The translations under genes and the position numbers were made by a program. Positions 1-15,681 of a stretch of DNA of 64,000 nt are shown here, one piece after another. Under the pieces are notes generated by a model. The model was not told the origin of the DNA. It was given only the letters and a program-made list of their open reading frames with translations, and did no database searches. This stretch comes from Clostridia bacterium (GTDB lineage Bacteria > Bacillota > Clostridia > Oscillospirales > Acutalibacteraceae), in the NCBI GenBank assembly GCA_017398485.1, contig JAFQFY010000033.1:54838-118837 (forward strand). The letters run 5' to 3'. Positions within the stretch are counted from its first letter, which is position 1. The number at the start of each line of letters is the position of its first letter.

Positions 1-3000
1 TCTGCCGGCATGATCGCGCCGCTCGCCTCTTACTCGAAGCTCTCTCTGTCGGTATCCGGCAGCGGCGTGGTGACGGCGCGTGACAACGGTACTACCGTCG
101 GCAGCAACGATAACCACGGCTCCGGCACTTATACCCAGTCGGGTGTCGATTACGGCTTCGAGGTACTGGAAAACGCTACCGAAAAGAGTGGTCGCGCGCC
201 GATCCTCATCGTGCTGTCCGACGGTCTTGCCAACTATGCGACGAGCGGCAACTGGTACGATCCCGGCGAGAACAAGAACTCCTCGAACGTGCGCGGATTC
301 GGCACGAACGGCATCATTTTGTCGACGCTGCTCAACGGCGCGTTTAAGAAATCCTCCGTTGAGCGTGCTTACGGCCGTTCGGCGTACGTTTACGGCATCA
401 GCGTTGAGGTGTCGGATGCCAGCAGTGACGTCATCATGGACCCCGTCAACAACTTTAATGCCAATTCCGTTTCCTCTAACGGTCGCACGGCGTATTCCTG
501 GTTCCAAAACTGGTCAAATTCCGATGCAACCTACACGAACGGAAGCTGGTCCTTCCAACAGGTGCCCACAAGCACTGCGTATAACCCGAACGGTGTTACC
601 AAACAGGACGTCATTGATAATATTGCGTACATCGATACGCATTACAGTGCAAACGATACCACTGCTTTGCAGAATACTTTCCAACAGATCCTTACGGAAC
701 TGAAAACACCTGCCTTTATTCCTACGGTGGATAAGGTACAGACCGGCACGGGCATGGTGGACGTACCGCTGACCTACGTGGATTTTATCGGCGAGTATAT
801 GGAGGTCAAGGATTTTAAGGCAGTCACGTTGTTCGGTAAGACTTACGTCGTAGGTGACGGTACCGCCGCCGCTCCGACCTACGCGGTCGGCGAAACGGTC
901 ACGCGCAGCGTCGTGACGACCTATCCCGTCGGCGTCGGTGCCGCTTCGGTCACTCACCCGACCCTCGGTACCGTGTTTGACGTTGACGACAACGTCTGGT
1001 TGACTATCACCGAGGAGGTCACCGGCGCGTACAACGCCGTCGGTGAGTTCGTTCCTAACGGTGTGCCGCTACAGACCGTGCGCGTGTATATCAATTCCGT
1101 CGCCTTGCCGGTCATTCTCGACGAGGTCGAGGTGGATAAGGACGGCAACGTTACCTTCTCGGAGACAACGCCGCACCCGATCCGCGTGTATTATACCGTC
1201 GGTATGGCGGATGCGGTGTGCAAGGCAGACGGCAACGTCGACTGGACCAAGCTGGACGACGCTTACGTGGCGGCGAATACCGATGCACAAGGGTATGTCA
1301 ATTTCTATGCTAACCGTTACGGTGAGATGAACGCACCCGTCGGCGGTGTGGTGACCAACGGCGATGCGCACGTGTCCTTCACTCCCTCGGCGGAAAACCG
1401 CTATTACTACCACCAGAACTCCAACGCCGTCTTCTTCGACGTCAAGGACGCGCAGGGCAATCCCTTGGTCGCTGAGCCGGACGAATACGGTGTGGAATAC
1501 AACCAGGCGATGGACGGTTATCAGTACGATTATCTGGACGCCGCAGACATCTTTGAGTGGCAGGGCGGCACCCTCGTGCAGAAGATAGTGGACGACGCCC
1601 ATCCGCTTTATGCGTATATCGAGTATTATCATAAGGATCAAACTACCGGCAAGGGCGAGCTGGTCTATATGCTGGCGTTTGCCACGTGGGGCGAACTCAA
1701 AAACGACCTGACTGCCGTTCGTTTGACCGGTGAGACTCAAAACGGACAGGCGTTGCACGAGTATATCGCGACGAACGACACGGTATTTACCGTAGACGAT
1801 CTGCGCGCGTATATTGAGAACAACAATATCACCGATCTGACCGCCATCCGTGCGCGTCTGGCGGTCGGCACCCAGCGTATCTATCGCCTGCATCACATGA
1901 TTAAGGCGAAAAGTGACAACGTCACGGGCACGGCGGTCAACGCCTACGCGCCCGACTATAACAAGGACGCGGCACACGTCGGCTCGATCGTCATGTGGTT
2001 GGGCAACAACGGCGTGCTTCGCGCTCAGCCGGAGGAACTGGGCATCGTCATCACCAAGACGGTAGTCGGCAACGACGCCTCCACCGACGAGTTCACCTTT
2101 ACCGTCACTTCGGCGTCTGCTGCGGATAACGGGCTGGAGGTCGCACTGTCCTACTATGACGCCGACGGCAACGAGGCCGCGGGCGACACCGCTGAGTTTA
2201 TCGGCGGTAAGATCACCGTGCAGCTCGGCGCAGGCGAAAAGGTGGTCATCCGCGGTCTGACCAAGGACGTGGATTACACCGTTGCGGAAACGGACAACGC
2301 ATTGTACAATCTGACCTCGGTCAACGGCACGGCCGGTGCGACCTCGGTCGTTCTCAAACCGGCGTTCGGTGAGCTCGCTACGGCGTCCTTCACCAACACG
2401 GCCAAGCGCTTCGGCAACCTCGTTATCAACAAAGAGGTCCTGCATGACTTCGGTACCGAATACGTTGTTCCCGGCATGGAATTCGTCATTCGCACCCATC
2501 TCGCACTGAACGGCGAGAACGTGGCGAACGCGACCTTCAACGCGACTTACAGCGACGAGCGCGGCGACGCGACCGTGACGACCGATGCCGACGGCAACTT
2601 CCTCGTCACCCTCGCGCACGGCGAGAGCGTTGAGATCTTCGGCCTGGAAGCCGGCACGGTCGCCAACGGCACCGAGCTGTACTTCGACGGTACCGCCTAC
2701 TATACCTACGGTCAGGCGGCGGATAAGTGGTACGACGGCTTTGTTGCGCCGACCTATTACGATGACGACGGCAGTGAGAACGGTCAGGTGGACATCATCG
2801 CCGACACCACGGTCGCCGGCATCGTGTACAACACTTATGCGCCCACCTACGATGCGGTCGAGGCAGACATTCGTCTGTCGGGTCAAAAGACCGTCGTTAA
2901 TGCGCCTGCGTCGCTGGGCGACACTTTCACCTTTGAGTTACAGCAGTGGAATGCTGCCACGCAGGCATGGGATATCGTCGTTGATACCGCTACGGCGAAG

Positions 3001-5460
3001 AACGGCGAAGCCATCGTCTTTGACGGCGCGCAGTTTGCGTATACTGCGATCGGCACCTATTCCTACCAGATCGTTGAGATTCCCGGCAATAACGCCGGTA
3101 TCACCTACGACCCGACCAAGCACACCTTCACCGTGACCGTCACCGATACGGATATGGACGGCGCGCTGGAGATCGCGTCGGTGGTGTCGGATCATTCCAA
3201 TGCGCCGTTTGACAAGAGCGGCAACGCATTTGTCAACGATCATATCCATTACACCAACTATTACGGCTCGACCGATGCGCTCGCGCAGCTCGATATTCAG
3301 AAAGAGCTCGTCAACGCTTCCGGCAGCCCGCTCGTCGACCTTGAGGGCTATAAGTTCGAACTCTACGAGGGGAATGCCAAGGTCGCGGAGAATTACACCG
3401 ACGCCGTCGGTGAGGCACAACTGACCTGGTGGATCACGCAGGAGGGTACCCACACTTATACTCTCAAAGAGGTCAACGGCGGCGTCAACGGCATGGATTA
3501 TGCCGACGATATCGTCATTGAGGTCGTCGTTACGGACGACGGCAACGGCAACAAGATCGTCACCGCGATCAACAACGTCAGCGCCGCAGCGGCGGTGACC
3601 GACGAGCTGGTCGTTACCAACGTGTACACGGCACAGGCGGCGGTCGTTGAGCCCAACATTTCCAAGACCCTGATCGGTCGTGACATGGTAGACGGCGAGT
3701 TTACCTTCGAGCTCAAGCAGGTCCTGCGCGGTTCGGAAGGCTACGTCAAGGCGATCGTCGGCGGCGTGGATACGCTGCTTACGGCGGATGGTCTGACCGT
3801 CAAGAACACCGCGGCGGCAAACGGCGTAAAGAACGATATCCTGTTCCCGAGCTTGAAATTTGAAAAAGTAGGCACGTATTTCTTCACCATCGACGAATTG
3901 GGCGATGATGCGAACGGGCTGACCTATGACAAGAATATCTACCACGTGCGCGTCACCGTCACCGACAATAACGGCATCCTTGCGGTCGTCACCGAGATCT
4001 ACGATCAGCTCGGCGACGAAAATGCAGTGCACTTTACCAACACCTATGCGGCTAAGCCTGTTACCTACACGGTGCAGGCGCACAAGGATCTGGAGGGTCG
4101 CGTGCTTGCCGAGGGCGAATTCACCTTCAATCTCGTAGGCAATAACGTTACCCATACCGTGGCGAACGGCGCCGACGGCTCCGTCGTGTTCCCCGCTTTC
4201 ACCTTTGACGCGGTCGGGACATACGAGTTTGTTCTCACCGAGGTCAACGGCGGTACCTTTGTCAATTACGGTGAGCAGGGGTATAACGGCATCAGCTACG
4301 ATGGCGACAAGTTTACCTATATCATCACCGTCAAAGACGACGGCCGCGGTCAGTTGTACGTTGAGCCGGTGGAGATCTTCGATGCCGGCGGTTACGCCGT
4401 CAACAGCACGCCGACCTTCGTCAACAGTTACGAGGCATTTGTGTATCATACGATCAAAGGCGTGAAGTATCTCAACGGCGGTGAGTTGCAGTATAACAAA
4501 TATGGCTTTGCACTGTACGACGCGGACGCCGACGGTAACAAACTGGCTCAGACGCCGATCGAAACGACCTACAATGAGGCGGATGGCACGTTTGAATTCT
4601 GTGTAGAATACAAAGTCGACGGTTCTCGTGGCGTCAACGACGTCGGCGTACACCATTACGTCGTGGAAGAGGTCGGTGCCGGTGAGTTCGTCGAGGAAGA
4701 CAACGGCGAATACGGCGTACGCTACGACGACAGACAGTATCACGTCGTCGTCAACATTGAGGACAACGGTGACGGCACGCTGAAAGCCACGCAGAGCAAT
4801 ATTCTTAAAGACTCCGGTGTGTTGTACGAGACGTTGGAATTCGTTAACCGCCGCTATGACATCGCTAACAAAGAAGTGCATGGCAGTGCAGACGCGGATG
4901 TTAACATTGACGGCAACACCGTTGCGGTCGGCGAGGAACTCACCTATTCCATCTACTTCTACAACGGCAATAACGCCGAGACGACGGTGACGGTCGTTGA
5001 CACGATTCCGAGCGGCACCGCCTACGTTGCCCATTCGGCGGACCACGGCGGCGTGTATGCCGACGGCAAGATCACTTGGATGCTGACCGTGCCGGCACAC
5101 ACGGAACTTAACGTCAACTTTAAGGTCACGGTCGTGGCAGGCGGCGTGTCGATCGATAACACGGCGGCGGTACTCGTCGGCAACAACACCTACGAGACTA
5201 ACACCGTCACCAATGATGTGACCGCTCCCGAACCCGAGCCCGAGCCCGAGCCGAAGCCCGAGCCCGAGCCGAAGCCTGAGCCCGAGCCCGAGCCGAAACC
5301 CGAGCCCGAGCCGAAACCCGAACCCGAGCCCGACAAGCCGGAAACCGAGAGTCCCAAGACGGGTGACAGCGGCAATCTCGGCTTGTGGATCGCGCTGGCG
5401 TTCGTCAGCGGCGGCGTGATCTTCGGTGCAAAGAAGAAAAAGAAGACCGATAACGCCTAA
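1..5460 (+). CDS. Sortase-anchored pilin-like adhesin, 5' end outside window
   Basis: The reading frame is open from base 1, so the start and signal peptide lie upstream; about 1819 residues are visible. The first ~240 carry the later part of a von Willebrand A fold (ILIVLSDG strand). From about residue 675 come Ig-like modules, and from about 950 to 1610 five FctA/Spy0128-type isopeptide pilin modules, each ending in a G-T-Y...E...YD...V-TV-D pattern. A DUF11-like module follows (~1615-1730), then a Glu-Pro/Lys-Pro wall-spanning stretch, then SPKTGD, a hydrophobic helix and a lysine tail, which is a variant LPXTG sorting signal. This architecture is typical of wall-anchored major or tip pilins; self-formed Lys-Asn bonds are expected from the family. 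The ligand is unknown. No sortase gene is in view. Confidence 0.85.
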   Translation, partial: SAGMIAPLASYSKLSLSVSGSGVVTARDNGTTVGSNDNHGSGTYTQSGVDYGFEVLENATEKSGRAPILIVLSDGLANYATSGNWYDPGENKNSSNVRGFGTNGIILSTLLNGAFKKSSVERAYGRSAYVYGISVEVSDASSDVIMDPVNNFNANSVSSNGRTAYSWFQNWSNSDATYTNGSWSFQQVPTSTAYNPNGVTKQDVIDNIAYIDTHYSANDTTALQNTFQQILTELKTPAFIPTVDKVQTGTGMVDVPLTYVDFIGEYMEVKDFKAVTLFGKTYVVGDGTAAAPTYAVGETVTRSVVTTYPVGVGAASVTHPTLGTVFDVDDNVWLTITEEVTGAYNAVGEFVPNGVPLQTVRVYINSVALPVILDEVEVDKDGNVTFSETTPHPIRVYYTVGMADAVCKADGNVDWTKLDDAYVAANTDAQGYVNFYANRYGEMNAPVGGVVTNGDAHVSFTPSAENRYYYHQNSNAVFFDVKDAQGNPLVAEPDEYGVEYNQAMDGYQYDYLDAADIFEWQGGTLVQKIVDDAHPLYAYIEYYHKDQTTGKGELVYMLAFATWGELKNDLTAVRLTGETQNGQALHEYIATNDTVFTVDDLRAYIENNNITDLTAIRARLAVGTQRIYRLHHMIKAKSDNVTGTAVNAYAPDYNKDAAHVGSIVMWLGNNGVLRAQPEELGIVITKTVVGNDASTDEFTFTVTSASAADNGLEVALSYYDADGNEAAGDTAEFIGGKITVQLGAGEKVVIRGLTKDVDYTVAETDNALYNLTSVNGTAGATSVVLKPAFGELATASFTNTAKRFGNLVINKEVLHDFGTEYVVPGMEFVIRTHLALNGENVANATFNATYSDERGDATVTTDADGNFLVTLAHGESVEIFGLEAGTVANGTELYFDGTAYYTYGQAADKWYDGFVAPTYYDDDGSENGQVDIIADTTVAGIVYNTYAPTYDAVEADIRLSGQKTVVNAPASLGDTFTFELQQWNAATQAWDIVVDTATAKNGEAIVFDGAQFAYTAIGTYSYQIVEIPGNNAGITYDPTKHTFTVTVTDTDMDGALEIASVVSDHSNAPFDKSGNAFVNDHIHYTNYYGSTDALAQLDIQKELVNASGSPLVDLEGYKFELYEGNAKVAENYTDAVGEAQLTWWITQEGTHTYTLKEVNGGVNGMDYADDIVIEVVVTDDGNGNKIVTAINNVSAAAAVTDELVVTNVYTAQAAVVEPNISKTLIGRDMVDGEFTFELKQVLRGSEGYVKAIVGGVDTLLTADGLTVKNTAAANGVKNDILFPSLKFEKVGTYFFTIDELGDDANGLTYDKNIYHVRVTVTDNNGILAVVTEIYDQLGDENAVHFTNTYAAKPVTYTVQAHKDLEGRVLAEGEFTFNLVGNNVTHTVANGADGSVVFPAFTFDAVGTYEFVLTEVNGGTFVNYGEQGYNGISYDGDKFTYIITVKDDGRGQLYVEPVEIFDAGGYAVNSTPTFVNSYEAFVYHTIKGVKYLNGGELQYNKYGFALYDADADGNKLAQTPIETTYNEADGTFEFCVEYKVDGSRGVNDVGVHHYVVEEVGAGEFVEEDNGEYGVRYDDRQYHVVVNIEDNGDGTLKATQSNILKDSGVLYETLEFVNRRYDIANKEVHGSADADVNIDGNTVAVGEELTYSIYFYNGNNAETTVTVVDTIPSGTAYVAHSADHGGVYADGKITWMLTVPAHTELNVNFKVTVVAGGVSIDNTAAVLVGNNTYETNTVTNDVTAPEPEPEPEPKPEPEPKPEPEPEPKPEPEPKPEPEPDKPETESPKTGDSGNLGLWIALAFVSGGVIFGAKKKKKTDNA
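5227..5340 (+). repeat. Glu-Pro / Lys-Pro dipeptide repeat
   Basis: Short GC-rich units (gagcccgagccgaag-like) encode alternating EP and KP dipeptides just before the SPKTGD anchor. Such proline-rich rods usually carry a surface protein through the peptidoglycan. The repeat is prone to length change by slippage. Confidence 0.85.
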
Positions 5461-10878: not shown

Positions 10879-11496
10879 TTAAATGAGTGAATAGTCGGAC
10901 GAGAACGCCATGGTTGCGAGTGCAAGAATGCCCATGTAAATGAGCGTCGACGGCATACCGCGGAATGCGTCCGGCATATCGGGGTTGTCGAGGCGCTCGA
11001 TGCCCTCGTCCACGATGAAGGTCACCAACGCAAAGCCGAGACAGGCGCCGACGGCAAGACCGATGACACCGCTGAGCTTGGCGGAGAATTGCAGATTGGA
11101 TACCAGTGCGATGCCGAGCACGAGGCTGTTGAAGGCCGCGAGCGGCAGCGTGTGGCTGATGCGGCCGTAAAAGGTGGGGAAGAAATACCCCAGAATGATC
11201 ACCGCAAGGATATACAGCACTGCGGTGATGCCCAACAGCATCAGCGGTCGCCAATAGTTCGTGATGGCGGTGCCCAACCACTTATCCAGCGGATAGGCAA
11301 TGACCACCGTCAACACGGAGAACACCGTCAGCATGGCGCTGAATATCCATACGTGGCGCGGCTTGCGCACAACGCGCAGAACGCTTGAGGAGCCGAAGCC
11401 GGTGGTCAGCACGATGTTTTGCAGCAACGCGATGGTAGCGAAGAAGGAGAGCAGTTCCGTGAAACCGTCATAGAAAGCAACGAAGAAATCGGTCAT
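10879..11496 (-). CDS. rnfA: RnfA-like membrane subunit lacking the cluster cysteines
   Basis: This 205-residue protein with about six membrane helices aligns along its length with RnfA/RsxA (LPLAAFNSLVLGIAL and MPDAFRGMPSTLIYMGILALA near the end). Normal RnfA carries one cysteine in an LGxCP motif and one in an NCAVLG motif. Together with their RnfE counterparts they hold an intramembrane iron-sulfur cluster. Here these positions read GSSS (about residue 37) and FNSLVLG (Ser124), so both cysteines are serine. It overlaps the rnfE stop by four bases and is the last Rnf-like gene of the cluster. Fold and family are clear, but its electron-transfer role is doubtful. Confidence 0.85.
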   Translation of the reverse strand: MTDFFVAFYDGFTELLSFFATIALLQNIVLTTGFGSSSVLRVVRKPRHVWIFSAMLTVFSVLTVVIAYPLDKWLGTAITNYWRPLMLLGITAVLYILAVIILGYFFPTFYGRISHTLPLAAFNSLVLGIALVSNLQFSAKLSGVIGLAVGACLGFALVTFIVDEGIERLDNPDMPDAFRGMPSTLIYMGILALATMAFSSDYSLI

Positions 11497-12146
11497 TGAT
11501 GCTCAGCCTCCTTCCCACGGAAATAGGCAGAGACGCGCTGACGCACCCACTGCAACAGCGCGGCCATAAAGCCGAGCATAAGGAAAGCGGTGAAGGGGGA
11601 AGCAACTTCCGGTAAAACGTAGCCTATACCCACGGGATGACCCCAAAGGGTACTGTTCACGGCGATCTCGCGCAGGGCGGAAATGGAGCAGATGACCGCA
11701 CCGAAGCCGACGATGCTGCCGAGCGCCTCGAACAGCGTTTCCAGCGGATGCATGGTCTGTGCCATGGAGGCGTTGTGCGCGTGCAACATGTTTACCGCGA
11801 TGATGGGGATAAACACGTATAACCGCGCGTACAATTCGGGCGAAATGTAGGTTTCCAGCAGATAAGCGGCGCCAACGAGCAGCAGTGCGGCGAGCAGCAC
11901 GTACACCACCGGACGCAACCATTTGGGCAAGTAGTTGCCGATAAAGGGCATGATGAGGCTCAACGGCAATAGGATGGCGGCGGTGCAGGCGGTCAGAGCT
12001 ACACCGCTTTGCAGCGTGACGCCGGCGGCGATGATGGGGCAAAGACCGATCGCTTGTACGAGCACGATGTTCTGCGTGACGGCGGTTTCGATAAAGGAGT
12101 CAGCCGCCTGCCAGAAATGGCGACGGAAGGTCTTGCGTTTACTCAT
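11493..12146 (-). CDS. rnfE: RnfE-like membrane subunit with one retained cysteine
   Basis: The 217-residue, multi-helix protein matches RnfE/RsxE: TQNIVLVQAIGLCPIIAAG near the N-terminus, FIPIIAVN in the middle, and SALREIAVNSTLWG, the usual 'LREIxGxGTxxG' segment. The first cluster cysteine is present (Cys36 in GLCP). The second, normally in VNCIILG, is Met120 in AVNMLHAH. The gene overlaps rnfD (stop side) by eight bases and rnfA by four. In standard operons rnfG lies between rnfD and rnfE; here the two genes overlap and leave no room for it. Confidence 0.85.
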   Translation of the reverse strand: MSKRKTFRRHFWQAADSFIETAVTQNIVLVQAIGLCPIIAAGVTLQSGVALTACTAAILLPLSLIMPFIGNYLPKWLRPVVYVLLAALLLVGAAYLLETYISPELYARLYVFIPIIAVNMLHAHNASMAQTMHPLETLFEALGSIVGFGAVICSISALREIAVNSTLWGHPVGIGYVLPEVASPFTAFLMLGFMAALLQWVRQRVSAYFRGKEAEHQ

Positions 12147-13152
12147 GAGCCTTCACCTCCCGACGGATACGAAGCAGGCGCGTGATATTGCGCCAGCCGT
12201 AATAGCTCCAACGATCGATGATCGGGGAGAGAGCGTTGACGATCAAAATAGCAAAACAACTGCCGGCCTCCATGCGACCGACTTGTTGCAGCAGCATTGT
12301 CAGCGCACCGGCAAACACACCGTAGAGGATACGTCCGAGCCAAAAGCGCGGCGCGGTCACGGGATCGTTGAGCAGGAACACACCGGCGAACAGCACGTAG
12401 CCGGCGCACATCTGTGCGAGAATGCTGTGCAGGGTATCAAGACCGGTGCAAGGCGTACACCAAGCGCAGAGCACGCAGGTAATCAGATACGGCAGGATCG
12501 TCCATGCGCTTGCGGTGCGGCGAATAATGAAATACGCGGCACACGCCAGCAGGATGACGGTAGCGGTAGCACCGATCGGTCCGACGAAGTCGCCGAGCAA
12601 CAGATGCAAACGGTTGACCGTGGGCGTTGCGCCGTCGCGGATCTGCGCGGCGAGTGAGGTGCCGACGGAGGCGTCCTGTGCAGTGAGTTCCATGTCGAGC
12701 GGCAACTGCATGCCGGCGCCGATCGCCGGATAGGTGAACATGCGTTGCGGTGTGCAATAGGAGAGCAGTGCGATACCGGCCGCGGCGGGATTAAACACGT
12801 TGCGACCGTAACCGCCGAAAGGTGCTTTGACCACGAGCACGGCGAACGCCGAGCCGACCATCGGCACCCAGTAGGCAACCATGGGAGACATTACCAGACC
12901 GATGAGCGCACCGGTGACGGCGGCACTGCCGTCTAACAGTGTGCGCAGAGATCGGCGTCGGATCAGACAGCAGATCGCTTCACACGTCACGGAGGACAGA
13001 ATGCTCAGCAGACCGATATACACCGGACGCATGCCGTAATTAAACACCGAGAAAACGTACAGCACGCTTGCGGCGATGAGCACGTCCATGATCATGTGTC
13101 GACTCTTTTGTTCGGTGCGGATGTGGGGTGCCGGATTATTATTCATCTTCAT
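12139..13152 (-). CDS. rnfD: RnfD-like membrane subunit
   Basis: The 337 residues form a polytopic RnfD/NqrB-type protein. Signature parts are APFGGYGRNVFNPAAAG (about 110-126), the DGATPT stretch (Thr176, the position that carries covalent FMN in RnfD), GDFVGPIGATATVILL after it, and a LLNDPVTAPR-like segment near 275. The last is the usual 'F(M/L)xTDPVTSP' element with Thr replaced by Asn. The N-terminus, with HIRTEQKSRHMIMDVLIAAS, is typical. It overlaps rnfC by 14 bases and rnfE by eight. Of the Rnf-like proteins here it is the one with the best preserved cofactor site. Confidence 0.88.
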   Translation of the reverse strand: MKMNNNPAPHIRTEQKSRHMIMDVLIAASVLYVFSVFNYGMRPVYIGLLSILSSVTCEAICCLIRRRSLRTLLDGSAAVTGALIGLVMSPMVAYWVPMVGSAFAVLVVKAPFGGYGRNVFNPAAAGIALLSYCTPQRMFTYPAIGAGMQLPLDMELTAQDASVGTSLAAQIRDGATPTVNRLHLLLGDFVGPIGATATVILLACAAYFIIRRTASAWTILPYLITCVLCAWCTPCTGLDTLHSILAQMCAGYVLFAGVFLLNDPVTAPRFWLGRILYGVFAGALTMLLQQVGRMEAGSCFAILIVNALSPIIDRWSYYGWRNITRLLRIRREVKAHE

Positions 13153-14407
13153 TACCCCCCCAATTCAAGAATACGGGGCCGGAGGTCTCGCCGGCGCGCA
13201 ACACGGCGGCGGCAACGTCCCGATCGGCCGGGCAAATATACGAGCAGGCACCACAGCCGTCGCACAGTTGGGCGGTCAAGCGGCGCAGGCGCTCGAAGTG
13301 CATGTTTTCGGCGCGTCGGACGATCTCGTAGGGCAGTAACTGTGCGTGGCACACCGTTGCACAACGACCGCAGCCGATGCAGGGTTGCGGTACGCGTGCG
13401 GCTTTCGGCTTCATTACCAACAGCGTGGTGGTGCCGGGCAACAGCGGCGTGTGCGTATCGGGGCAGGCGATGCCGGTCATGGCGTCGCCCAGCACGACGT
13501 CCACCTCAATGGTGACGTTGCAGGCGGCGAGAATATCCGCGACGTTCGCGCCGTACGGCACGCGCAGGTTACGCGAGTAGATGACACCGTCGCCGGCGAC
13601 CGTGACCACCGCGGTCAGCGACTTGCGGCCCTCTTGCACTGCCTTGGCGAGCGCGAGACACGCCTGGATGCCGATGCGGAACACCTCGTCGCGCGGATCA
13701 GCGTACTGGGTGACGGGATATTCATCTGCAACGGTATAGACGTTAATGCGGTTAATGGCGCGTTTGAGTGCACGCCGTTTATCCTTGGGTAGCATGGTGG
13801 CGATGTGGTAGCGTGTGAAACGCATCGCTTTGGCGGCCAGTTGCAGACCGAGCAGCGCGGCTTCGGGTTCTTCGTCCAGGATCGCCCAGGCGGAACTGCC
13901 GAACACGTCGTTTTCGGTCGCATCCGCCACCAACACATAATTGGGCGAAGCGACGTCATTCTCCGGCAACTGCCAGCAGGCAAGCTTTTCCGCCAGCGGC
14001 ACGCCGTCGAGTTCGTCGTAGATCGCCGCTTCGGTCGCAATACGAATAATATCGTCGGGTGTCAGTTTTTCTGTCGGGATAACGGGCAGTGTTTCTTCGT
14101 CGCCGTCACCCGGAATAAGCTCGGCACACAGCAATTTGCCGTATTGCGGATGCTGTAATACCACCGTGCCGCCGAAGGTGCCGGCGACGGGCGCCAGTAC
14201 CGGCAGTTCGTTGTCCTCTTTGTACAGGACGCTGCCGGCGGCAACGGACGCATTCTCTTCAAAGGGCAGACTCGGCACGGGCGTGTCCATATCCAAACGG
14301 ACGAGCGGCACGCGCACAGAGCTTTGCGCCCGAAAATCTTCAATTTTGTTCAGAGGGGCGTTTCCTTTTTGAAACGGCAGAACGACGCCGTTGAGAAACA
14401 TACCCAT
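13139..14407 (-). CDS. rnfC: RnfC-like peripheral subunit with degenerate NADH/FMN site
   Basis: From ATG 14407 (after AAGAAAGGTG; a GTG 24 bases upstream has no good site) the protein has 422 residues. A barrel-sandwich region comes first, then the Nqo1-like middle part, an SLBB-like segment and two 4Fe-4S motifs: Cys343/346/349/353 in CIGCGRCATVC and Cys382/385/388/392 in CDGCGACSYIC. Normal RnfC has GGxxFPT and (N)GxECEP motifs for NADH and FMN, plus a YPxGxEK loop. At the corresponding places this protein reads IYDELDGVPLAEKL, VADATENDVFG and YPVTQYADPRDE. The fold and the ferredoxin-like end are kept, but the nucleotide site appears lost. First gene of the cluster, probably driven from the 14.41-14.53 kb gap. 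Confidence 0.82.
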   Translation of the reverse strand: MGMFLNGVVLPFQKGNAPLNKIEDFRAQSSVRVPLVRLDMDTPVPSLPFEENASVAAGSVLYKEDNELPVLAPVAGTFGGTVVLQHPQYGKLLCAELIPGDGDEETLPVIPTEKLTPDDIIRIATEAAIYDELDGVPLAEKLACWQLPENDVASPNYVLVADATENDVFGSSAWAILDEEPEAALLGLQLAAKAMRFTRYHIATMLPKDKRRALKRAINRINVYTVADEYPVTQYADPRDEVFRIGIQACLALAKAVQEGRKSLTAVVTVAGDGVIYSRNLRVPYGANVADILAACNVTIEVDVVLGDAMTGIACPDTHTPLLPGTTTLLVMKPKAARVPQPCIGCGRCATVCHAQLLPYEIVRRAENMHFERLRRLTAQLCDGCGACSYICPADRDVAAAVLRAGETSGPVFLNWGGNEDE

Positions 14408-14534: not shown

Positions 14535-15086
14535 GTGAAGGTTGAACCGATCTCCAACGGAAATATCCGCATCTGGTTATCGCAACAGGAAATGGACGCC
14601 GCCGACGCAGCCGATTTGCGGCGAGCGTTGCGGCAGGTCTTGACGATCGCTCAAGGGCGTCTTGCACGCATGGGCGGCCGCATCGTGGCAGATCTGATTC
14701 CGGTTGAGGACGGTTGCGTTTTGCTGTTGTCTGCGCGACGCCGAAAAGCGAACGCAGGACCGCTTGTGTGTTACATAGATACCCTGCGCGACGTGTTTCA
14801 GTTGGCAGAGCGGCTGACGGTGCATGTGCAGAGTGAATCTTATCCGCAGGCTTGTTTGTACGCCGTGGACGGTGGGTACGCGTTGGTTATTTATCCGTCG
14901 CCGCACCTGACGCGACAGCAGGCACGTGCGGTGCGAGAGCTTGGTTGTCCTCTCGATAAAGGAGAAACCGCTGCTACCGTCGTTGCCGAGCACGGCCGCG
15001 CGTTGGCGATCGGTGATGCGCTCAAACGGCTGAGTTTTACAGCGCGTGAACTTGATCGACCAGCGCCTTCGGATCGGGAGAGTTGA
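14535..15086 (+). CDS. MecA-like adaptor protein, short form
   Basis: The 183 residues resemble the MecA/YpbH adaptor that delivers substrates to ClpC. An N-terminal KVEPISNGNIRIWLSQQEM block matches the start of MecA. The C-terminal half parallels MecA in order: IDTLRDVFQLA for the FGDFEDVISLS strand-helix, LYAVDGGYALVIYP for LYSFENRYYLYV, then AEHGRALAIGDALKRLSF for the EYGKLIISEHALETI helix. The acidic linker of Bacillus MecA is almost absent. The GTG start at 14535 lies four bases after AGGGGGAAGG. Its last 50 bases overlap the 3' end of the convergent rpe gene. The assignment rests on pattern alignment by eye; a search against the MecA family would settle it. Confidence 0.65.
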   Translation: MKVEPISNGNIRIWLSQQEMDAADAADLRRALRQVLTIAQGRLARMGGRIVADLIPVEDGCVLLLSARRRKANAGPLVCYIDTLRDVFQLAERLTVHVQSESYPQACLYAVDGGYALVIYPSPHLTRQQARAVRELGCPLDKGETAATVVAEHGRALAIGDALKRLSFTARELDRPAPSDRES

Positions 15087-15681
15087 AGAGTGCACTGCCG
15101 ATAACGGCGACGTCTGCGCCGGCCTCGGCAACGAGCTTGGCGGTATCGGCGTTGATGCCGCCGTCCACCTGGATCTCCACTGCCAGGCCGCGACGGTCGA
15201 TCTCGGCGCGCAGCTGAGCGATCTTAGGCAACATATCCTGCATGAAAGACTGGCCGCCGAAGCCGGGTTCCACCGTCATCACCAGCACCATATCCACCAT
15301 TTCGAGGTAGGGGAAGACCTCCTCGGCGGTGGTCTTTGGCTTGATGGTGATGGCAGGCTTTTTGCCCAACGCACGAATGCGAGCGAGCGTGTCTGCGATC
15401 GGCGCATCGCTTTCAAGATGGATATTAATGATATCGGCGCCGGCCTTGGCGAAATCGTCGAGCAGGCGGTCGGGGTATTTCATCATCAGATGCACGTCAA
15501 AGCACATATCCGAGTGGGGACGCATGCAGGCGAGCACGGGAGGGCCGAAGCTCATGTTCGGCACGAACACGCTGTCCATGACGTCGAGGTGCACCATGTC
15601 GGCACCGGTGTTCTTCACCATGTGCAGTTCATCGGCGGCGTGCGCAAAATCGCACGAGAGAATAGACGGGGAAACTTTCAT
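15037..15681 (-). CDS. rpe: Ribulose-phosphate 3-epimerase
   Basis: The 214-residue TIM-barrel enzyme interconverts ribulose 5-phosphate and xylulose 5-phosphate in the pentose phosphate pathway. It starts with the typical SPSILSCDF strand. HLDVMDSVFVPNMSFGP, FDVHLMMKYPD, VMTVEPGFGGQSF and VDGGIN supply the metal and phosphate ligands (two His, two Asp). Length is normal. It is the last gene of the rimP-to-rpe operon, 21 bases after the ribF/HAD stop, with AAGGAGG before its ATG. Its 3' end overlaps the MecA-like gene on the other strand by 50 bases, with no terminator between. Confidence 0.96.
   Translation of the reverse strand: MKVSPSILSCDFAHAADELHMVKNTGADMVHLDVMDSVFVPNMSFGPPVLACMRPHSDMCFDVHLMMKYPDRLLDDFAKAGADIINIHLESDAPIADTLARIRALGKKPAITIKPKTTAEEVFPYLEMVDMVLVMTVEPGFGGQSFMQDMLPKIAQLRAEIDRRGLAVEIQVDGGINADTAKLVAEAGADVAVIGSALFNSPDPKALVDQVHAL

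Follow-up and report, generated by a model that had tools for sequence, protein, structure and literature searches.

Can the membrane core of an Rnf-like complex serve a purpose once the cysteines of its iron-sulfur site are gone, and if so, which one? The question is raised by four genes in a 64,000-nucleotide stretch of DNA (here called the window) from a Clostridia bacterium (assembly GCA_017398485.1, contig JAFQFY010000033.1). The initial annotation had read Ser37 and Ser124 in RnfA and Cys36 and Met120 in RnfE where four cysteines would be expected, and alignment confirmed that these residues fall at the four positions that supply the ligands of the RnfA/RnfE metal site in known Rnf structures. 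The genes, the ligand-position codons (placed from the reading frames), and the neighboring genes are as follows:

13139..14407, minus strand: RnfC paralog, 422 aa; both [4Fe-4S] motifs present, FMN/NADH loop GLGGAGFPT replaced by a DELDG-type motif
12139..13152, minus strand: RnfD paralog, 337 aa; riboflavin-site Asn and Asp present, Ser at the flavinylated Thr position
11493..12146, minus strand: RnfE paralog, 217 aa; Cys36 present, Met120 in place of Cys
12039..12041, minus strand: RnfE Cys36 codon (first ligand position, kept)
11787..11789, minus strand: RnfE Met120 codon (second ligand position, lost)
10879..11496, minus strand: RnfA paralog, 205 aa; Ser37 and Ser124 in place of both Cys
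11386..11388, minus strand: RnfA Ser37 codon
11125..11127, minus strand: RnfA Ser124 codon
9610..10845, minus strand: DUF4015 glycosidase-like protein, 411 aa; next same-strand gene, 33 bases past rnfA
14535..15086, plus strand: MecA-like protein, divergent neighbor, also in relatives; weak Pfam match (21.6 bits versus a cut-off of 22.5)
15037..15681, minus strand: ribulose-phosphate 3-epimerase (rpe), neighbor, also in relatives

The four genes lie in the order C-D-E-A on the minus strand, with every gene overlapping its successor and a Shine-Dalgarno-like stretch visible by eye ahead of each. Neither rnfB nor rnfG was found in the set or among the other window genes. NCBIfam models name the four genes RnfA, RnfC, RnfD, and RnfE, yet all score under the curated cut-offs (65.2, 117.1, 174.4, and 64.6 bits, respectively, versus 229.3, 245.95, 207.05, and 213.4), RnfD coming nearest (174 versus 207 bits). 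Structure models of the window RnfC and RnfE gave predicted folds that agree with solved Rnf. Elsewhere in the window, a plus-strand open reading frame of 1816 aa (positions 10-5460) resembles a surface protein by eye; it contains repeats and has a sorting-type C terminus, PKTGDSG...KKKK.

Both cysteines are kept in none of 99 paralog RnfE and none of 96 paralog RnfA sequences, versus 69 of 70 canonical RnfE and 66 of 68 canonical RnfA, in sets of deduplicated relatives that were gathered by searches with the paralog as query (hence not random samples) and sorted by whole-protein profiles that draw in part on the cysteine columns themselves. Where both subunits could be read, the paralog complex carries no cysteine at these positions in 37 cases, one in 58, and two in a single case (n = 96). 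All four are present in 65 of 67 canonical complexes, one of the two exceptions being a truncated RnfA. As for the replacements, the second RnfE site is Ser or Thr in 74 of 99 paralogs, the first RnfA site is Ser in 73 of 96, and the second RnfA site is Asn, Thr, or Ser in 68 of 96; the first RnfE site still has Cys in 44 of 99 paralogs, and in another 36 it is Tyr, Pro, or Phe. The alignment gives no support to shifted cysteines, though 59 of 99 paralogs have RnfE Cys153; a conserved Cys36/Cys152 pair in RnfE was ruled out, position 152 of the window protein being Ile and the cysteine sitting at 153. In A. woodii, mutation of the ligand cysteines is reported to abolish activity and autotrophic growth (PMC11889175). 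Given that report, and with at most two of the four cysteines in all 96 paralog complexes, the expectation that a normal RnfA/E cluster should not form is supported. The interpretation in the initial annotation, a complex that no longer moves electrons in the normal way, is only partly supported: it does not extend to a loss of all electron movement, the RnfC [4Fe-4S] motifs and the RnfD riboflavin residues being kept. One canonical-type operon in an order-level genome (L085, with G and B) has Gly at the second RnfE ligand site and an RnfA whose first Cys is displaced by one residue (GCGSF versus GICPF), which may represent an independent alteration at the cluster.

Some anaerobic Clostridia, with many inhabitants of animal guts among them, carry a second Rnf-like membrane complex without the RnfA/E iron-sulfur site, the presumed driver of ion pumping. 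All 10 genomes sampled for the genus (the window's own and nine others) carry the paralog set. Within the genus, the median dN/dS was 0.24 for RnfE, 0.22 for RnfA, and 0.27 for RnfD (45 pairs each, with some input reading frames bearing unlikely N-terminal extensions); these values point to purifying selection, for which a test had been proposed at the outset. Decay in a single strain or an assembly artifact was rejected because 10 of 10 genus genomes and named isolates carry the set, dN/dS lies well below 1, and Shine-Dalgarno-like stretches precede the genes. The isolate genomes include those of Caproiciproducens galactitolivorans BS-1, Negativibacillus massiliensis, and Massiliimalia timonensis; in the genome collection, the best 80 loci have several named carriers, among them C. 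galactitolivorans, Anaerotruncus, Anaeromassilibacillus, Negativibacillus, and Massiliimalia. C. galactitolivorans is assigned to the Acutalibacteraceae by NCBI, and we infer that the window's family is close to these carriers. Counted by profile score and not by inspecting cysteines one by one, strong matches to the paralog RnfE profile (E of 1e-42 or better) occur in 95 of 300 family genomes and 42 of 135 genera. Among 40 regions around the same-family RnfE matches at the top of the list, 38 were of C-D-E-A or D-E-A type and 2 were canonical. In a FastTree phylogeny of D, E, and A from the collected homologs (155 taxa), 88 paralogs were split from 67 canonical complexes along a long branch with a local support of 0.992, placing the paralogs with lost cysteines in one clade (support 0.99). 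When 147 order and 245 class genomes were searched, the matches were mainly canonical RnfE, and among the best 30 of each search (56 loci, L076-L131) the only paralogs outside the family were L080 and L086, although lower-scoring or more divergent paralogs could escape such searches. The set would be an old Rnf duplicate, limited in the sampled genomes to one order of Clostridia, and judged from its sequences the cysteine-poor complex probably has a different job from Rnf.

The assembly (1.46 Mb, 79 contigs, 84.6% complete) also holds, on another contig (C11), the second, normal rnf operon that the initial annotation had suggested looking for: a complete rnfCDGEAB with all four cluster cysteines, and a gene taken for a candidate apbE a few genes beyond it. 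We counted Rnf-Nqr (PF02508) matches in the 64 of the 95 strong-match genomes that are at least 95% complete. There were four matches in 58 genomes and three in 1, where a contig end truncates the paralog RnfA; in 5 genomes from two genera the paralog pair, with two weak paralog-type matches in each genome, was the sole source of Rnf-Nqr matches. Because these 5 near-complete genomes have the paralog pair alone, the paralog complex can exist without canonical RnfA/E.

The gene neighborhood gave further, looser associations. An rpe gene occurs within five genes on either side in at least 65 of 100 loci; the corresponding counts are 48 for a MecA-like gene and 45 for a DUF4015 gene. Of the 88 loci that extend far enough to judge, 45 have DUF4015 within the next two same-strand genes, the median gap being 27 bases where RnfC is present, and the window copy is the sole DUF4015 match in its assembly. 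Relatives of the window DUF4015 protein occur in 21 of 100 family genomes (13 adjoining paralog rnfA, 1 at a contig end, and 7 elsewhere). In that sample of 100, with a single protein as query, no relative was found in 17 of the 30 strong-paralog genomes, and DUF4015 was for this reason rejected as a fixed partner. The adjacent gene hints at a cell-envelope role: DUF4015 has been seen fused to YkyA domains, linked there to polysaccharide deacetylases (PMC12700454). Regarding rpe, often a neighbor of the paralog set, the gene of Caproicibacterium lactatifermentans is reported to have a predicted Rex site and to rise on lactate (PMC9600882, Table 1).

All eight [4Fe-4S] cysteines of RnfC are present in the window protein, and each is found in 81 to 82 of 82 paralogs. 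Three motifs with roles known from the NuoF/RnfC family, the FMN/NADH loop (GxGGAGFPT), ECEP, and YPxGGE, are gone, and a DExDG-type motif and its variants are found instead. RnfC of the Anaerotruncus type (L174:4948-7995, L177:5776-7995, L202:5743-7983) has, by eye, a shortened-looking N terminus and a long Ala/Glu/Lys-rich, coiled-coil-like C-terminal extension. In RnfD, the window protein has the Asn and Asp that correspond to the A. woodii riboflavin residues N123 and D249, and each is retained by 62 of the 68 members that have RnfC. The flavin Thr position is Ser in 84 of 102 paralogs versus Thr in 72 of 72 canonical sequences; the window RnfD reads ASVGTSLA and departs from the [S/T]GA[S/T]-like ApbE motif with threonine. 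Membrane cysteines gained by RnfD paralogs are frequent (window 12139-13152); Cys204, for example, stands where 70 of 72 canonical sequences have Gly. Electrons in Rnf are described as passing from ferredoxin through RnfB, the RnfA/E site, RnfG, the RnfD flavins, the RnfC clusters, and FMN to NAD+ (PMC11889175, PMC9588780). Set against this route, the paralog complex has lost the entry side, with neither rnfB nor rnfG in the set and no four-cysteine site, and retains part of the exit side.

Not every member has RnfC. Of the 94 assignable loci among 100, RnfC is present in 76 and missing in 18 with a known upstream neighbor, absence being judged from the gene neighborhood. D, E, and A are all present in 94 of 100 loci; the others are L200, L203, and L204 (a lone RnfD-like gene), L172 (no RnfA seen), and L068 and L165 (which end before RnfA). 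In L200, L203, and L204, the RnfD-like gene, for which no RnfE/RnfA partner was detected, adjoins a conserved gene of no assigned function, with a glmS-like gene (by eye) nearby. The RnfC-less loci fall into two supported clades and a single locus, L194, with L068 (lacking RnfA) outside the tree. In the larger group, made up of 13 loci in the tree clade (including L075, whose RnfC status is unassignable) and L068 placed by resemblance, Asn123 is kept in 0 of 14 loci and the RnfE tail is mostly long. The second clade and L194, which are 5 of the 18 RnfC-less loci, keep Asn123 and have RnfE tails of 21 to 52 residues, so a clean coupling of RnfC loss to riboflavin-site loss is only partly true. 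Overall, the median RnfE tail is 143 residues in the 18 RnfC-less loci versus 21 in 68 loci with RnfC; some canonical RnfE tails are also long (up to 332). In RnfC-less loci L048-L050, L055, L057-L061, L064, L065, L068, and L070, the tail (71 to 502 residues) is acidic and disordered looking, and a motif like ELEELMxxSxDDI near the tail end occurs in some RnfC-less RnfE sequences only. As read from these genes, D-E-A is the common part of the complex and persists in one clade without a recognizable electron path.

Because all that members have in common is D-E-A, and the riboflavin Asn, nearly always together with RnfC, is gone from one clade, the function shared by all members would be something other than electron transfer. 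We tentatively favor, at somewhat less than an even chance, a reading in which RnfA/E is an iron-free alternating-access translocator of an ion or small solute, joined to RnfD and usually RnfC as a redox input that some lineages have dropped; it is favored since RnfA/E persists even in members that lack both RnfC and the riboflavin residue. The RnfA/E dimer has been described as alternating-access and symporter-like (PMC11889175, PMC12174285), and the metal site as the narrowest point of its hourglass (PMC9588780). In the paralogs, the former cluster site may have become a mostly small, polar constriction that passes an ion or solute, and RnfC and RnfD, where present, could act as a redox sensor or gate. 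Consistent with this reading, the loss of cysteines is clade-wide and under purifying selection, and three of the four sites are mostly Ser, Thr, or Asn. In A. woodii simulations RnfA Asn112 takes part in Na+ binding, and this residue is found in 60 of 66 paralog members that have RnfC and in 17 of 17 that lack it; of the RnfE Arg67-Glu115 pair, next to which a Na+ ion has been resolved in the A. woodii complex, the Arg is present in 18 of 18 and the Glu in 15 of 18 RnfC-less loci; and the RnfE gate residue Leu103 is kept in 90 of 99 paralogs. Against it, the paralogs no longer have RnfA Thr111, and most members with RnfC have lost Glu115 (Glu in 5 of 68, Asp in 5); hence, the A. woodii Na+ route is not intact in those members. 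Tyr, Pro, or Phe at the first RnfE site could plug rather than open the path. Movement of ions or transport by the paralog complex nevertheless appears plausible. That RnfA/E works as a non-redox alternating-access carrier without its cluster, one lineage having also shed RnfC and the riboflavin Asn so that D-E-A is left with no clear redox cofactor site save the Ser at the old FMN position, is possible but doubtful.

The main rival to the iron-free translocator is a one-way electron conduit, in which the return half of Rnf, from the [4Fe-4S] clusters of RnfC to the flavins of RnfD, would pass electrons between a cytoplasmic donor and an acceptor outside or in the membrane, RnfA/E being mere scaffold. 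The near-invariant eight cysteines of RnfC do argue for real electron flow in members with RnfC; the retained Asn123 and Asp249 and the Ser that stands in for the flavin Thr, and that ApbE might target, point the same way. The riboflavin of Rnf is reported to lie 11.7 Å from an RnfC cluster (PMC9588780), and partial, one-path NQR/RNF-like systems are on record (PMC8238504). We nonetheless consider such a conduit unlikely: no RnfG-like acceptor accompanies it, the sole FMN_bind protein found in the 84.6% complete assembly being the canonical RnfG, with none near the RnfD paralog; the residues ahead of the RnfD Ser misfit the ApbE motif; RnfC has lost its FMN/NADH loop; and members without RnfC beside D-E-A are left unexplained. 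A relocated metal or Fe-S site, built from new RnfD cysteines (Cys133, Cys204, Cys226, and Cys299) and replacing the A/E cluster, is very improbable. Those columns are indeed Cys in 79, 70, 54, and 54 of 102 paralogs versus 2, 0, 0, and 9 of 72 canonical sequences, but all four occur jointly in only 18 of 102.

Alternatively, the complex could be regulatory, with membrane-anchored RnfC, or the long RnfE tail in some RnfC-less lineages, recruiting cytoplasmic partners and nothing being transported. The longer RnfE tails without RnfC, the extension of Anaerotruncus-type RnfC, and the MecA-like gene near 48 of 100 loci would fit such a scaffold. We judge it improbable given the short tails in the second RnfC-less clade and L194, the long tails of some canonical RnfE, and the polar former cluster sites, which it leaves unexplained; MecA nearness may be plain synteny. 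Finally, the paralogs could be spare C-D-E-A subunits that join canonical Rnf as alternative parts, as canonical-type Rnf-Nqr matches in 59 of 64 paralog genomes would allow. This seems scarcely credible with five near-complete genomes holding the paralog pair only; moreover, just 21 of 75 members with RnfC retain RnfA Arg154, a residue that in A. woodii lies close to the cluster of RnfB.

We found no description of a cysteine-less Rnf paralog in the open-access literature, as represented by titles and the beginnings of abstracts in a nonexhaustive search with most subscription papers outside its scope. The ion path of Rnf and Nqr is disputed, having been placed in RnfA/E or in RnfD (PMC11889175, PMC9588780). 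The paralogs amount to a natural experiment: evolution took away the RnfA/E cluster, RnfB, and RnfG, joined in one clade by the riboflavin Asn and mostly RnfC, and left the membrane core in place; what they still move would reveal the purpose of the RnfA/E cluster. If the non-redox transporter reading is true, the RnfA/E gate can move its cargo without electron transfer. There is also a practical consequence: since the Rnf names come from family models, with scores below the cut-off, metabolic models may credit a nonexistent Rnf pump (5 of 64 near-complete genomes). For strain BL-6, a lactate chain elongator, only four Rnf subunit genes were reported in 2020, described there as an annotation gap (PMC7764203). 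C. galactitolivorans carries the C-D-E-A set (L180, L189), and the four BL-6 genes are probably the same set.

Compared with the Rnf complex (ferredoxin:NAD+ oxidoreductase, rnfCDGEAB), the paralog set has homologous C, D, E, and A genes in the same order, the [4Fe-4S] motifs of RnfC, and, in most members with RnfC, the riboflavin residues of RnfD. Unlike Rnf, it lacks B, G, and the four-cysteine site, has lost the FMN/NADH loop of C and the flavinylation motif of D, and forms a separate clade. Na+-NQR (NqrABCDEF) is another proposed rnf duplicate that lost rnfB (PMC4014512) and has the D/E-type membrane fold in common with it. However, Nqr is described as keeping the RnfA/E-type and RnfG-type cofactors and as having NqrF (PMC12174285), whereas the paralog set has lost the cysteines and shows nothing that replaces RnfB; neither NqrF, looked for in the set only, nor NqrC is among its four genes. 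The NQR/RNF-like partial systems of Meheust et al. 2021 (PMC8238504) likewise keep part of the Rnf electron path. In those systems, described primarily from Actinobacteria and CPR, an RnfD-type domain is fused to an NqrF-type NAD domain and accompanied by an FMN-binding protein; C-D-E-A has neither, and in the window RnfD (337 aa) PF03116 is the sole domain, with no NqrF NAD fusion. As described in these two reports, neither Nqr (PMC4014512) nor the partial systems (PMC8238504) lack the RnfA/E cysteines as the paralogs do.
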